Source: Chitinophagales bacterium (GTDB lineage: Bacteria > Bacteroidota > Bacteroidia > Chitinophagales > Chitinophagaceae). Taken from it: DNA of 57,634 nucleotides. A model generated the notes under the pieces. The model was given only the letters and a program-made list of their open reading frames with translations, was not told the origin of the DNA and ran no database searches. The stretch spans positions 1 through 57,634 of the forward strand of contig JAFLBN010000021.1 in assembly GCA_017303395.1 (NCBI GenBank). Direction: 5' to 3'. This document shows, in pieces, positions 41,203 through 54,207 of the stretch (within the stretch, counting starts at the first letter, position 1; each line of letters opens with the position of its first letter). Both the position numbers and the translations under genes were made by a program.

Positions 41203-41206
41203 TATT

Positions 41207-41257
41207 TGCTCCAGTGCTCCATATATTAACAGTTGGAGGATTGGAGCAAGTGGAGCA
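41207..41257. repeat. Island 1 array A1: TGCTCCA-word hairpin
   Basis: Words TGCTCCA at 41207 and 41215 (1-nt gap); inverted words TGGAGGA 41234, TGGAGCA 41242 and 41251. Loop 12 nt. The left arm TGCTCCAGTGCTCCA folds back on the right. Confidence 0.8.
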
Positions 41258-41294
41258 GAGAATAAACCTACTTATGTCATTGCCCCATCAAGGT

Positions 41295-41322
41295 CGTCAT
41301 TCCGACGGTAGGAGGAATCTGC
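41295..41322 (+). repeat. CGTCATTCC-type element, left copy of island 1
   Basis: Begins CGTCATTCCGACGG and ends GGAGGAATCTGC, pointing toward the gene at 41411. It belongs to a dispersed family also present at 42399-42426 (inverted), 52512-52537 and 53882-53903 (inverted). Confidence 0.6.
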
Positions 41323-41340
41323 AGAGCATTAATATTGTTA

Positions 41341-41400
41341 GCTCCATTTTGCTCCAGTGCTCCAAGTACTGGTAGTTGGATTTGTGGAGCAAGTGGAGCA
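41341..41400. repeat. Island 1 array A2: TGCTCCA-word hairpin
   Basis: Words GCTCCA 41341, TGCTCCA 41350 and 41358, then inverted TGGAGCA at 41385 and 41394. The array A4 at 42443-42493 is its inverted copy (shared CACAAATCCA next to the words). Confidence 0.8.
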
Positions 41401-41410
41401 GAGGGTAATA

Positions 41411-42289
41411 CTATAAAGTAACATCATCGATAACCTGTATGCCTCTGGCTCGAAGTACAATTGCAAGTTCTCTCAATGTTCTGTTAGATAGTGTGAAAAA
41501 GTAATATCGTTTCCACTCATTGTTTCTTCTCCATACCCTTATGCGTGTTAGCTTTCCAATTCTTTCATAGCGAACATTTATCAAGTCATCAAGCTGAAAG
41601 CGATTGGGAAAAAATATGGTTTGATAGTTTTTTATGTAGAATTTATCCTTTGATATGCTGATAATAAACGTGTTGACAGATAGTATAAGTAAAGTAATTA
41701 TGATTAAGAATATTATAAAAGATATATCAGTATCATTTTGAAGGATACATCTATCAAGTACTTGTAGTAAGATGAGTACGAGTGGAATAGAGAGAATTCC
41801 CAGCACAGAAAATATAAAGGAACCTTTGAAATAACGCATTATGTTCTCGTCAGGCCTTGGGCTTTCTGAAATGACAATAGTTCTCAGGTGTTGTTCTATT
41901 GCAGTATAATTTTTACAATAGTTCTGGTGAATAAATACAAAGTCGCCGTTCTTAAATATTACACATGCGCTATAAACTTTACGAAGCAAGTGAAACCAAT
42001 GTTCTCGTTCAGTATACACTATTTTTTCAATGTCGGTATTCAGATATGTTTTTTTACTGATGAGATTTTTGATTACAATTTTATTGTCATAGAACTTGAT
42101 GTTAGGGATAGGATTGAATATTTCGTAGAAGAAGCCAGTGATTAGTATGATTGTGAAGGCGATATGTAAGATGTGTAAAGTTGGATTATGATATTGCAAA
42201 CGAGTAAAGAAAAGTAAGGTTATTGTAATAGTCAAGAACAAGAGTATTCTCACCATTAGCTTAAGGGGATATTTTTTGGTTCTAATCAT
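41411..42289 (-). CDS. AT-rich membrane protein with two repeated 2TM+PH-like units (island 1 cargo)
   Basis: 292 residues, clearly more AT-rich than its neighbours. Helices lie at about 12-30, 36-55, 157-178 and 190-209. After each helix pair comes a beta-rich domain: residues ~62-140 (IKFYDNKIVIKNLISKKTYL, then IEKIVYTEREHWFHLL) and ~212-290 (FYIKNYQTIFFPNRFQLDDLINVRYERI), which look like a duplicated bacterial PH-like module. No close family is recognised. It is the only gene between the TGCTCCA arrays and reads away from the downstream oxidoreductase gene only by strand order. Function unknown; foreign origin is inferred from composition and flanks. Confidence 0.6.
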   Translation of the reverse strand: MIRTKKYPLKLMVRILLFLTITITLLFFTRLQYHNPTLHILHIAFTIILITGFFYEIFNPIPNIKFYDNKIVIKNLISKKTYLNTDIEKIVYTEREHWFHLLRKVYSACVIFKNGDFVFIHQNYCKNYTAIEQHLRTIVISESPRPDENIMRYFKGSFIFSVLGILSIPLVLILLQVLDRCILQNDTDISFIIFLIIITLLILSVNTFIISISKDKFYIKNYQTIFFPNRFQLDDLINVRYERIGKLTRIRVWRRNNEWKRYYFFTLSNRTLRELAIVLRARGIQVIDDVTL

Positions 42290-42330
42290 ACTTTAAATTA
42301 ATGATACTAATTAAGGTCTGGTTATTCGTC

Positions 42331-42381
42331 TGCTCCAATGCTCCAATCCTCCAGGCTACTATAGTTGGAGCAAGTGGAGCA
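42331..42381. repeat. Island 1 array A3: TGCTCCA-word hairpin
   Basis: Words TGCTCCA 42331, 42339, TCCTCCA 42347, then TGGAGCA 42366 and 42375. The TCCTCCA word is the complement of TGGAGGA in A1, so A3 resembles an inverted A1. Confidence 0.8.
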
Positions 42382-42398
42382 ACAGTGCTAATGCTCAG

Positions 42399-42426
42399 GA
42401 GATTTCTCGTTACACTCGAAATGACG
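42399..42426 (-). repeat. CGTCATTTCG-type element, right copy of island 1
   Basis: On the minus strand it starts CGTCATTTCGAGTG and ends AATCTC, pointing inward toward the gene, opposite to the left copy at 41295. Confidence 0.6.
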
Positions 42427-42442
42427 CGAGTGGGTTTGTCCC

Positions 42443-42493
42443 TGCTCCATTTGCTCCACAAATCCAGTTACTATAAATTGGAGCACTGGAGCA
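42443..42493. repeat. Island 1 array A4: TGCTCCA-word hairpin
   Basis: Words TGCTCCA 42443 and 42452, then TGGAGCA 42479 and 42487. It reads as A2 inverted. The oxidoreductase gene ends 19 bp downstream. Confidence 0.8.
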
Positions 42494-42511
42494 AGGTCGA
42501 GCAAAATTGGT

Positions 42512-52167: not shown

Positions 52168-52220
52168 TTTTTCACGCTTTTTCACGGTTTCATGGTGTGT
52201 AGAGCGTGAAAACGTGAAAA
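52168..52220. repeat. Island 2 module B1: TTTCACG-word array
   Basis: TTTTTCACG at 52168 and 52178, TTTCATG 52188, then CGTGAAAA at 52205 and 52213. A near-identical copy (direct, not inverted) is C1 at 54117-54167. Confidence 0.8.
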
Positions 52221-52222
52221 TC

Positions 52223-52300
52223 TGTTCCACTCATTCCACACGTTCCACTCGTTCCATCTGTTGAGGAAATGGAATAATGGAATAATGGAATATCGGAACA
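52223..52300. repeat. Island 2 module B2: TGTTCCA/TGGAATA array
   Basis: Left words TGTTCCA 52223, ATTCCA 52233, CGTTCCA 52241 and 52250; right words TGGAATA 52270, 52278, 52286 and CGGAACA 52294. The inverted counterpart is C2 at 54054-54114; B4 is a second copy. Confidence 0.8.
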
Positions 52301-52313
52301 AAACACAGATGCT

Positions 52314-52355
52314 TGTTCCACTTGTTCTAATCCTGTATGTTGGAACACTGGAACA
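52314..52355. repeat. Island 2 module B3: TGTTCCA array
   Basis: TGTTCCA 52314, TGTTCTA 52323, TGGAACA 52341 and 52349. The inverted counterpart C3 (53991-54042) shares the variant word TGTTCTA/TAGAACA. Confidence 0.8.
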
Positions 52356-52367
52356 AAATGAACATTC

Positions 52368-52428
52368 TATTCCACACATTCCACACGTTCCACTTGTTGA
52401 GGAAATGGAATAATGGAATATTGGAATA
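52368..52428. repeat. Island 2 module B4: second copy of B2
   Basis: TATTCCA, CATTCCA, CGTTCCA words, then TTGAGGAAA and three TGGAATA words; repeats B2 with the same TTGAGGAAA link. Confidence 0.8.
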
Positions 52429-52431
52429 AAC

Positions 52432-52484
52432 TGTCCCAAGTGTCCCATTCGTCCCACAGTATTATATTTTGGGACAGTGGGACA
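52432..52484. repeat. Island 2 module B5: TGTCCCA array
   Basis: TGTCCCA 52432 and 52441, CGTCCCA 52450, then TGGGACA 52470 and 52478. The inverted counterpart is C5 at 53919-53981. Confidence 0.8.
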
Positions 52485-52511
52485 AGGTGAAACACGTATG
52501 ATATTATCCGT

Positions 52512-52537
52512 GTCATTGCGAGGAACGAAGCAATCTC
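52512..52537 (+). repeat. Island 2 module B6: CGTCATT-type element
   Basis: Starts GTCATTGCGAGG and ends AATCTC. Its first 21 bp occur as a perfect inverted copy at 53882-53902, so the gene lies between a 21-bp perfect inverted repeat. This motif is one I know from many unrelated bacterial genomes, often mis-translated as SLRGTKQ. Confidence 0.8.
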
Positions 52538-52590
52538 ACGATAATAATTGTACAGGTATTACTGTTACTTTATATAATTTACAATGAAGA

Positions 52591-53826
52591 ATGAAAGCCA
52601 TGAATAATAATATTGTAATGTTAATAGGTGCTGGTGGTATGATACCTTGGGGAGCACCTACAACAAATAAGCTAACAGAGATAATCAGAACAGATAGGAG
52701 CTTTAAGACTTATACAGGTCAACCAGCAGGAGACTGGTTTTACAATAAATTAGCTGGCCTTTATCATAAGGATACACAATCTATAAACTTTGAGACAATA
52801 CTTAATTCCATAGAGTATTTAACAACATTTACAAGCTCTAAGTACAGAGATAGTATTTCGATGTATAAGAATATTATGCCTGCATTTTTGGAAGAGAAAG
52901 AAAGCCTAATGGAGTTGTTGTTGTTTGATAGAATTTATGAAAAACGAAATGATTATTGGTATATAGAAAGGAATAAGTATAAGTCAGTTGGTATTTGGAA
53001 TGATTATGATTATTTCTTTGATAACTTATATAAGCATTATATAAACTGTATTGTTAATAACGTTGAAAAATATGCACTGAAAAGTTGCAATGATATTTTA
53101 GATAAACAATGGAATAGTTTTATTGGTTTTATTAATAGTATAACACGTATTTATACCACTAATTATGATGCTCTGATTCCTAAAATTTCAGATAAACATT
53201 TTTTCGAAGGTTTTTCAATGATAGATAATCAATTAAAGTTCGATAACAAAAAGGTTTTGAAAGAAAGTAACGTGGATTGTTATTATAATTTACATGGTTC
53301 TATTCATTTTGATTTTGATTTTCCTTATAGTGTTACCTATAATCCTGATAAAGCTGTGTATAACTTTGGTAATGGTAGTTCAGGTATTGATGATGTTGAC
53401 CAAGATAAAAGAAAGCTTATTAAGTCAAATTTAGTTTCTGGATATAATAAGTCGTCAAGAATTTTAAATACACCATACGCACAGTTTTATCATAGTTTTT
53501 ATACTGATTGCATTAATACAGATAAGATTATAATTATTGGTTACTCATTTGGAGATAATCATGTAAACAGTGCATTAAGAACTGCATTCGGTCTAAATGA
53601 TAATTTGAAAATCAATATAATAGATTGTATGGTTTATGATGAGGATGTTTCAATCAAAACTGAATATGATTGGATTACAATCGAAGGGAAGGGAGATGCG
53701 TTTATTAATGAAGATTTCGGAGTCCATAAAATTATTACTAAAAAAGAGCAGCGTGAGAGAATAAAGATATACCGAAAAGGGGTTGAACAGTTTTTAAAGC
53801 ATGAAGAGTGGTTTAATATGCTTTAG
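52591..53826 (+). CDS. SIR2-like domain protein, orphan (island 2 cargo)
   Basis: 411 residues, strongly AT-rich (about a third GC by eye) unlike the flanking genes. The SIR2-like fold is visible: nucleotide-binding MLIGAGGMIPWGAPTTNKLTEII at ~9-31, TTNYDALIP at ~190, NLHGSIHFDF (His) at ~232 and IIIIGYSFGDNHVNSAL at ~315. These motifs are those of defence-associated SIR2 NADases that deplete NAD on infection. No partner (SLOG sensor, HerA, Argonaute, STAND ATPase) is next to it; the middle and C-terminus are helical without a recognised domain. Start may be ATG 52591 or 52600. It is the only gene within the repeat flanks. Confidence 0.82.
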   Translation: MKAMNNNIVMLIGAGGMIPWGAPTTNKLTEIIRTDRSFKTYTGQPAGDWFYNKLAGLYHKDTQSINFETILNSIEYLTTFTSSKYRDSISMYKNIMPAFLEEKESLMELLLFDRIYEKRNDYWYIERNKYKSVGIWNDYDYFFDNLYKHYINCIVNNVEKYALKSCNDILDKQWNSFIGFINSITRIYTTNYDALIPKISDKHFFEGFSMIDNQLKFDNKKVLKESNVDCYYNLHGSIHFDFDFPYSVTYNPDKAVYNFGNGSSGIDDVDQDKRKLIKSNLVSGYNKSSRILNTPYAQFYHSFYTDCINTDKIIIIGYSFGDNHVNSALRTAFGLNDNLKINIIDCMVYDEDVSIKTEYDWITIEGKGDAFINEDFGVHKIITKKEQRERIKIYRKGVEQFLKHEEWFNML

Positions 53827-53881
53827 AGTATTGCATGACAGTAATACTTTTCACAATTATTGTCTTATATAATTACAAACC

Positions 53882-53903
53882 TGCTTCGTTCCTCGCAATG
53901 ACG
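53882..53903 (-). repeat. Island 2 module C6: inverted CGTCATT-type element
   Basis: On the minus strand CGTCATTGCGAGG and onward; identical over 21 bp to B6 and pointing inward. Confidence 0.8.
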
Positions 53904-53918
53904 CCAGTATTGGTATAG

Positions 53919-53981
53919 TGTCCCATTTGTCCCACTGTCCCATACTATAAAACCACGGGACACTTGGGACAGTGTGGGACA
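53919..53981. repeat. Island 2 module C5: TGTCCCA array (inverted B5)
   Basis: TGTCCCA at 53919, 53928, 53936; CGGGACA 53956; TGGGACA 53965 and 53975. Its complement shares TGTCCCAAGTGTCCC and GGGACAGTGGGACAA with B5. Confidence 0.8.
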
Positions 53982-53990
53982 AAGTTGTTT

Positions 53991-54042
53991 TGTTCCATTT
54001 GTTCCATGTTTCAAGTATTGAGTAATAGAACAAGGTGGAACA
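53991..54042. repeat. Island 2 module C3: TGTTCCA array (inverted B3)
   Basis: TGTTCCA 53991 and 54000, TAGAACA 54026, TGGAACA 54036; reversed it matches B3 with the same TGTTCTA variant. Confidence 0.8.
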
Positions 54043-54053
54043 GAAGGTGTGTT

Positions 54054-54114
54054 TGTTCCAATATTCCAATATTCCATTTCCAGAACAAGTGGAACGTGTG
54101 GAATGAGTGGAATA
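54054..54114. repeat. Island 2 module C2: TGTTCCA/TGGAATA array (inverted B2/B4)
   Basis: TGTTCCA 54054, TATTCCA 54062 and 54070; TGGAACG 54090, TGGAATG 54099, TGGAATA 54108. The complement reads as B2. Confidence 0.8.
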
Positions 54115-54116
54115 TA

Positions 54117-54167
54117 TTTTCACGTTTTTCACGATTTCATGACTATCACAGCGTGAAAACGTGAAAA
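54117..54167. repeat. Island 2 module C1: TTTCACG array
   Basis: TTTTCACG 54117, TTTTTCACG 54125, TTTCATG 54135, then GCGTGAAAACGTGAAAA 54151; almost the same as B1 and in the same orientation. Confidence 0.8.
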
Positions 54168-54207
54168 AAGATAAATCGTGAAAGTAAGTACTTGTTTAGA
54201 GTTAAGC

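Follow-up and report, generated by a model that had tools for sequence, protein, structure and literature searches.

Near one end of the 57,634-nucleotide stretch of Chitinophagales DNA analysed here (hereafter, the window; source genome G000), a single SIR2-like gene stands between two nests of short, hairpin-forming words arranged in mirrored order. What are these nests, which protein reads their words, and what might they do for the gene that they enclose?

Mirrored word arrays around AT-rich genes

The gene (52591..53826, + strand; site A) encodes a 411-aa protein with a SIR2_2 domain (34.1 bits over a cut-off of 24.5; PADLOC Aga_SIR2, 1.6e-16), as the initial annotation had proposed for this orphan, and its stretch is as AT-rich as described there, with a GC content of 25-32% vs. 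46-54% in the adjoining genes. The left flank is composed of array 1 (TTTCACG, two words per arm, 52168..52220, kept in the sister-species genomes G004 and G005), array 2 (TGTTCCA/ATTCCA, 52222..52303), array 3 (TGTTCCA, 52313..52358), array 4, a duplicate of array 2 (60 nt, 92%; 52368..52431), array 5 (TGTCCCA, 52431..52486), and an inner CGTCATTGCGAGG element (52511..52540, + strand). The right flank harbors the mirror copy of this element (53874..53904, - strand), followed by array 5' (TGTCCCA, 53914..53975), array 3' (TGTTCCA, 53989..54041), array 2', an inverted match to array 4 (64 nt, 92%; 54051..54114), and array 1' (TTTCACG, 54118..54168).

The recount of the words agreed with the nested modules described initially. 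TTTCACG occurs at 52170 and 52180 (+) and at 52205 and 52213 (-) on the left, and at 54118 and 54127 (+) and 54152 and 54160 (-) on the right; TTCCA is found eight times on each strand in the left flank and six (+) and four (-) times in the right one, and GTCCCA three (+) and two (-) times in both flanks alike. The innermost component is, as claimed, a 21-bp perfect inverted repeat (52512-52532/53882-53902), to which the CGTCATTGCGAGG element belongs in part. Nine copies of TTCCANNNNTTCCA are present in the window vs. 0.17 expected, eight of the nine being in the site A flanks, and none of 100 shuffles reached at least nine. A word-hairpin detector returned six merged clusters from the window, five in the flanks of two cassettes (site A and site B, see below) and one single match elsewhere, vs. 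five single clusters from 20 order-2 Markov windows combined; moreover, all seven inverted-repeat pairs of at least 30 nt in the window fall at the same two cassettes. According to these data, the pattern at site A is real and far beyond chance. The alignment of the two flanks, suggested in the initial annotation, paired the arms as inverted repeats (64 nt at 92%, 46 nt at 93%, and 45 nt at 80%, among others), so that the mirrored order stands, with the qualification that the "direct" or "inverted" call for a given module is ambiguous, since the modules are themselves close to palindromic (for module 1, the pairing is 81% in direct and 77% in inverted orientation). A search of the region between 50 and 56 kb at the Rfam gathering threshold gave no match.

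The second cassette (site B, 41204-42505) follows the same grammar, with TGCTCCA hairpins and CGTCATT-type elements flanking an AT-rich ORF of 292 aa (41411..42289, - strand) that matched nothing in Pfam or PADLOC. Its four TGCTCCA arrays are the outer left (41204..41256), inner left (41338..41401), inner right (42328..42382), and outer right (42442..42505) ones. Using the CGTCATT element as a lead, we retrieved further G000 loci where AT-rich genes are framed by nested, mirrored word hairpins, so that the modules do not lie at random positions: on contig C10 (site C; cargo of 629 aa, SIR2_2/ThsA-like), C23 (site D; 488 aa, ApeA-type HEPN), C41 (site E; 235 aa, weak HEPN), C26 (261 aa), and C12 (323 aa). 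In the first 400 kb of C12, 12 of the 14 inverted-repeat pairs of at least 30 nt lie at 89-97 kb. The array words are repeated inside each locus and differ from locus to locus. A triple-word pattern built on TGYYC matched 53 times in the genus vs. 9 for a reversed control; across the phylum, it was found in 104 of 392 genomes, mostly with zero or one match each and with a few minisatellite-rich genomes, which implies that this word class is no general marker.

Two other repeat arrangements were noted in G000 and at locus L032. On C12 (177840-178336; L118), two TGTTCATG-type palindromes form an inverted pair spaced by ~400 bp, and the interval contains no large ORF; mirrored TTGATTGG-type words occur in L032 (9447-9503 and 15063-15101), the right copy being inside a DUF6371 gene.

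Exchange of cargo between kept flanks

The analysis of five syntenic sites (A to E) in sister species, a comparison for which the initial annotation had called, revealed that the arrays persist and that the cargo is nearly always different. At site A, the SIR2 gene of G000 is replaced by a 496-aa GldM-like protein in G004 and by proteins of 226 and 102 aa (GldL_N) in G005, while G007 retains the right-hand arrays only, with a 139-aa ORF; in G010, the o331 and aminotransferase genes of this region have between them a complete element whose words differ. The alignment of G000 with G004 stops at 52486 and resumes at 53914, that is, at the inner edges of the two TGTCCCA arrays. The non-autonomous cassette initially suggested fits these data, the flanks being kept in G004 and G005 around unrelated cargo. 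The SIR2 protein found no match among viral contigs, and none was reported in four other members of the genus listed, so that no flank-less relative with a syntenic SIR2 gene emerged; 13 loci of homologues in other genera are without modules.

At site B, the place of the 292-aa ORF of G000 is taken in G005 by a 183-aa gene, in G007 by a GIY-YIG gene (101 aa aligned at 56% with the copy on C12), and in G004 by a 498-aa gene without arrays; in G005 and G007 the outer modules persist, and the inner ones differ along with the cargo. Cargo lengths are 629, 524, and 258 + 365 aa at site C (FRG and GmrSD_N domains being among these), 488, 428, 203, and 420 aa at site D, and 235, 145, and 141 + 145 aa at site E, where G007 has one array and no cargo. 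An all-against-all comparison of 33, then 47, proteins yielded two related pairs only, the 145-aa genes of G004 and G005 at site E (75%) and the G004 site A cargo with a 492-aa protein from another locus of G009 (32%). The same repeats with different genes in sister species look like a plug-in slot for defence and other genes. A recombination hot spot, as first envisaged, fits these data; its restriction to defence genes does not, since the cargo belongs to defence only in part (10 of 31 proteins scanned with PADLOC matched below 1e-10). Gene turnover was also observed at module-free sites, among them locus B in G004 and several further indels in the window, which means that the modules are dispensable for some exchanges.

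At site C, a conserved 102-aa gene between the arrays of the DUF3987 gene (L113:8747-9052) is kept in five species despite the change of cargo.

Helicases and the words at their stop codons

The initial annotation had advised looking for an enzyme gene with the same flanks; genes with this kind of flank exist, and they code for initiator-type helicases rather than for a transposase. Genes for AAA_25 proteins with a C-terminal HTH (Pfam) adjoin cassettes on C12, with a DUF6371/zinc-ribbon gene nearby, in G010, and in G012, and a DUF3987 helicase gene lies at site C in five species. The genus harbors 20 AAA_25-HTH helicases in 10 of 15 genomes, 18 of them with an array found by script; the array of L457 came from the family scan and that of L634 was recognized by eye. 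The DUF3987 genes have an array in 8 of 18 cases, one being a weak single match. In a family sample, an array accompanied 21 of 30 AAA_25-HTH matches vs. 0 of 30 Markov copies, the control loci of aminotransferase (3/30) and 341-aa (6/15) genes being partly unclean, as they include the cassette sites A and E of the genus. Among the best 80 of 401 Bacteroidota relatives, 70 have the array directly after the stop codon, starting from -20 to +53 nt relative to it. Arrays are present in 13 of 27 phage-borne relatives and in none of 11 relatives judged by eye to be without such an HTH tail.

The predicted model of the helicase (mean pLDDT 84) has a helicase-like fold with three C-terminal helices; its top PDB matches are KaiC, T7 gp4 helicase, RadA, and DnaB, and those in a viral library are replicative helicases. 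A sequence search of solved structures gave one weak match, to a seemingly unrelated chain. Helicase relatives from large viral contigs (45-413 kb; L600-L610) have neither the HTH tail nor arrays.

The comparison of helicases with their arrays pointed to a correspondence between the HTH and the word. For 19 helicases with hand-read words, recognition-helix similarity tracks word similarity after removal of AAA similarity (partial r 0.55, p 5e-5), and with automatic 5-mer spectra of 68 non-redundant loci, drawn from the best 80 of 401 relatives, the partial Mantel r is 0.71 (p at most 2e-4, the floor of 5000 permutations). Two helicases with AAA domains 98% identical and helices 30% identical have the words TGTTTCA and TGTCCCA, and two others, with values of 44% and 90%, share TGTTCCA. 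Moreover, the same helix-word classes recur in distant hosts (ISLGAVNKYL with TGTTCAC, ISHMKVSRIL with TGTAACA, VSEGAIRKWI with TCGTAC, SKSTV with TGTCCCA, and IGTGTVSRY with TGCTCCA). In G013, the DNA of two helicase genes is 95% identical as far as residue ~326, where the HTH starts, and beyond it the HTH, the array, and the cargo all differ; both lie near contig ends in a MAG labelled Azovibrio, which makes chimerism possible. In a related observation, L511 and L514 come from a MAG titled Azovibrio restrictus with Bacteroidota-type helicases, and either its label or its bin looks wrong. Judging from these sequence comparisons, the array words are probably read by the C-terminal HTH of the matching helicase, the two forming initiator-iteron specificity pairs.

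Five initiator genes were found in G000 (two AAA_25-HTH and three DUF3987; VapE is absent). The site B word, TGCTCCA, is also the word of a helicase that G000 itself encodes on contig C28, the predicted word of the C12 helicase is TGCTCAC, and the words of site E and C26 (TTCACG, TTGTCCA, TTGCCCA, and TGTTCACG) match helicases of G004 and G005. For the words of site A, no cognate helicase is present among the five; TGTCCCA and TGTTCCA helicases are found in relatives.

Bracketed loci are ordered helicase, array, AT-rich gene, array, and a DUF6371 primase-like gene is often present. A second array with the same word, ~1-2 kb beyond the first, occurs at 17 of the best 80 of 401 helicase loci, most having one array. 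In all 17, the DNA between the arrays has a lower GC content than the helicase gene (mean difference 0.18, p 1.5e-5), and in the 15 of these with an ORF, the longest one is on the helicase strand. Among the bracketed proteins are SEFIR/TIR, Fic, AIPR/AbiU, DUF2971/PDC-S31, and OLD-like ones, along with several that matched nothing. In the TGTAACA group, a single array is present and no cargo is bracketed; in several cases, this array lies between the helicase and the DUF6371 gene. None of the ten neighbours tested around three elements is an integrase; they are housekeeping genes, one GIY-YIG gene, and one OmdA gene.

Small GIY-YIG nuclease genes were observed near DUF6371 genes or as bracketed cargo (L032:16649-16957 on C12 of G000, L095, L112, L188, and L492). 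The nuclease was considered as a candidate mover of the CGTCATT elements; only two of the five copies have these elements on both sides according to a loose pattern.

In viruses, an exact TGTCCCANNTGTCCCANNNGTCCCA search matched 110 stretches; 26 of the 80 opened form detector hairpins, and the set includes coding repeats, as judged by eye. Ten ORFs beside viral TGTCCCA arrays, picked by hand for scanning, gave nine replication proteins (five VapE, three DUF5906, and one AAA_25+PriCT_2) and one without a match. The viral-contig TGTCCCA arrays that adjoin VapE or DUF5906 genes (L192-L271), many of high GC content, are likely origins of other satellites and phages. VapE was rejected as the enzyme in G000, from which PF05272 is absent; in the genus, it exceeds the cut-off in two of 15 genomes, and no arrays accompany the VapE loci in three sister genomes.

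Probable origins, possible operators, and comparison with known systems

In phage satellites, the origin lies directly 3' of the initiator gene and is read by its C-terminal domain, and we therefore read the modules as such origins. Site A is, in our judgement, probably an exchangeable cargo gene set between duplicated origins of initiator helicases, the origins being orphaned. Each module would be an iteron array, with a 7-bp word in two sets of opposite orientation, as in phage-satellite origins, and an initiator-type helicase, either AAA_25 (RecA/DnaB-like) or DUF3987, would recognize the words through its C-terminal HTH. Site A would represent the orphan form, with the SIR2 gene inside nested arrays of three specificities (TTTCACG, TGTTCCA, and TGTCCCA). 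The arrays would fire as origins, a matching initiator supplied by a resident element, a prophage, or a phage would replicate or amplify the bracketed gene, and the arrays would serve as homology blocks for swapping, nesting, and losing cargo. The presence of two arrays around one gene suggests one of two processes: the gene would be copied upon action of the initiator, or the arrays, which resemble each other within a locus and are almost palindromic, would recombine to bring in, exchange, and remove cargo; the single-array, cargo-less site E of G007 fits the latter.

The closest known counterparts are the rep-ori regions of SaPIs and PICIs. According to passages of PMC7581432, the C-terminal domain of SaPI Rep reads iterons directly downstream of the rep gene, and passages of PMC6092414 place the PICI origin immediately 3' of rep. 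As far as these parts of the two papers describe them, the shared features are a helicase initiator that binds DNA with its C-terminal part, two sets of short iterons directly 3' of its gene, and cognate pairs, the pairing resting here on covariation. In contrast to these systems, here a second array repeats the word on the far side of a single cargo gene, several words are combined in orphan nests, the array middle is not AT-rich, and no integrase is found among the ten neighbours tested. Phage P4 shares arrays of TGTTCACC, which is how the "ori type 1 repeats" of its record read, in both orientations and at two separate sites (crr and ori); the P4 satellite, however, measures 11.6 kb and encodes a 777-aa alpha protein, whereas the initiators here are AAA_25-HTH or DUF3987-HTH proteins and VapE is absent from G000. 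The Cch2 helicase of SCCmec is likewise an initiator and, in excerpts of the published account, its C-terminal domain on its own binds direct repeats that lie downstream of the operon, but SCC is a recombinase-borne island with a different helicase family and different repeats. Finally, the P2/P4 satellite defence hotspots are, in the portion of PMC9122126 that concerns them, small loci, bordered by conserved genes, at which defence genes turn over at a high rate; there the frame consists of phage genes near cos, whereas here it is a chromosomal pair of word arrays.

Several results weigh against the origin reading. The middle 12 nt of the arrays are no AT-richer than the arms (GC 0.43 vs. 0.44, p 0.3), unlike published PICI origins; the detector flagged both crr repeats of P4 and not its ori; the second array is confined to 17 of the best 80 of 401 loci; cargo turns over at module-free sites too; the G013 pair carries its caveat of chimerism; and the site A words have no cognate in G000.

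The main rival, which we hold to be unlikely, is that the arrays are operators, bound by the helicase-HTH protein acting as a regulator that silences or induces the flanked cargo, for instance by looping. HTH-word covariation is compatible with any binding role, and the position of the longest ORF on the helicase strand in all 15 bracketed loci with an ORF looks as if the cargo were read on from the helicase. The single-array relatives without bracketed cargo, some with the array beside the DUF6371 gene, would need no cargo operator, though; furthermore, the layout equals that of SaPI, PICI, SCC, and P4 origins, and the predicted fold is of the replicative-helicase type. Also unlikely is a speculative scenario in which the orphan nests are bait origins carrying the words of incoming phage or satellite initiators: the helicase of the invader would load there, be diverted from its own origin, and copy or switch on the bracketed defence gene, so that the nest would document which initiators have been encountered and the cargo would be a weapon triggered by infection.

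Far less probable are non-autonomous transposon or MITE-like ends nested through successive insertions. The mirrored module order and the persistence of the outer modules at locus B in G005 and G007, with inner ones varying with the cargo, would be expected of them; the array partner, nevertheless, is a helicase, and the target-site duplication sought on the advice of the initial annotation was not seen by eye in the 28-32 nt outside the outer modules of locus A or the 25-26 nt outside locus B. In addition, left flanks are closer to the left flanks of sister species than to their own right flank (95% vs. 85% for G000/G004, under lenient scoring in which shuffled pairs gave 66-77%). Least probable of all, and already disfavoured by the covariation, is the idea that ordinary hairpins act as bidirectional terminators or insulators separating convergent genes at a hot spot of homologous recombination; it agrees with the convergent neighbours of loci A and B but not with the same-strand neighbours of locus D, and leaves the word specificity, the HTH covariation, and the arrays at helicase stop codons unexplained.

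The search of the open-access literature retrieved nothing on the CGTCATT sequence, nor any description of single-gene cassettes bracketed by origins, of orphan arrays in nests, or of a code linking HTH and word; the parts are known (3' iteron origins and satellite defence hotspots), and the arrangement and the code appear to be new.

With initiator-helicase origins as the probable identity of the arrays, a puzzling repeat pattern turns into a readable protein-DNA code, in which the last residues of a helicase allow a guess of its origin word and an orphan array allows a guess of its initiator. The arrays, in turn, provide a marker for Bacteroidota cargo slots, in which defence and unknown genes abound. 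The question that they raise is why a single AT-rich gene should have a copy of a replication origin on either side; should infection cause these origins to fire, defence would be coupled directly to the replication machinery of the invader.
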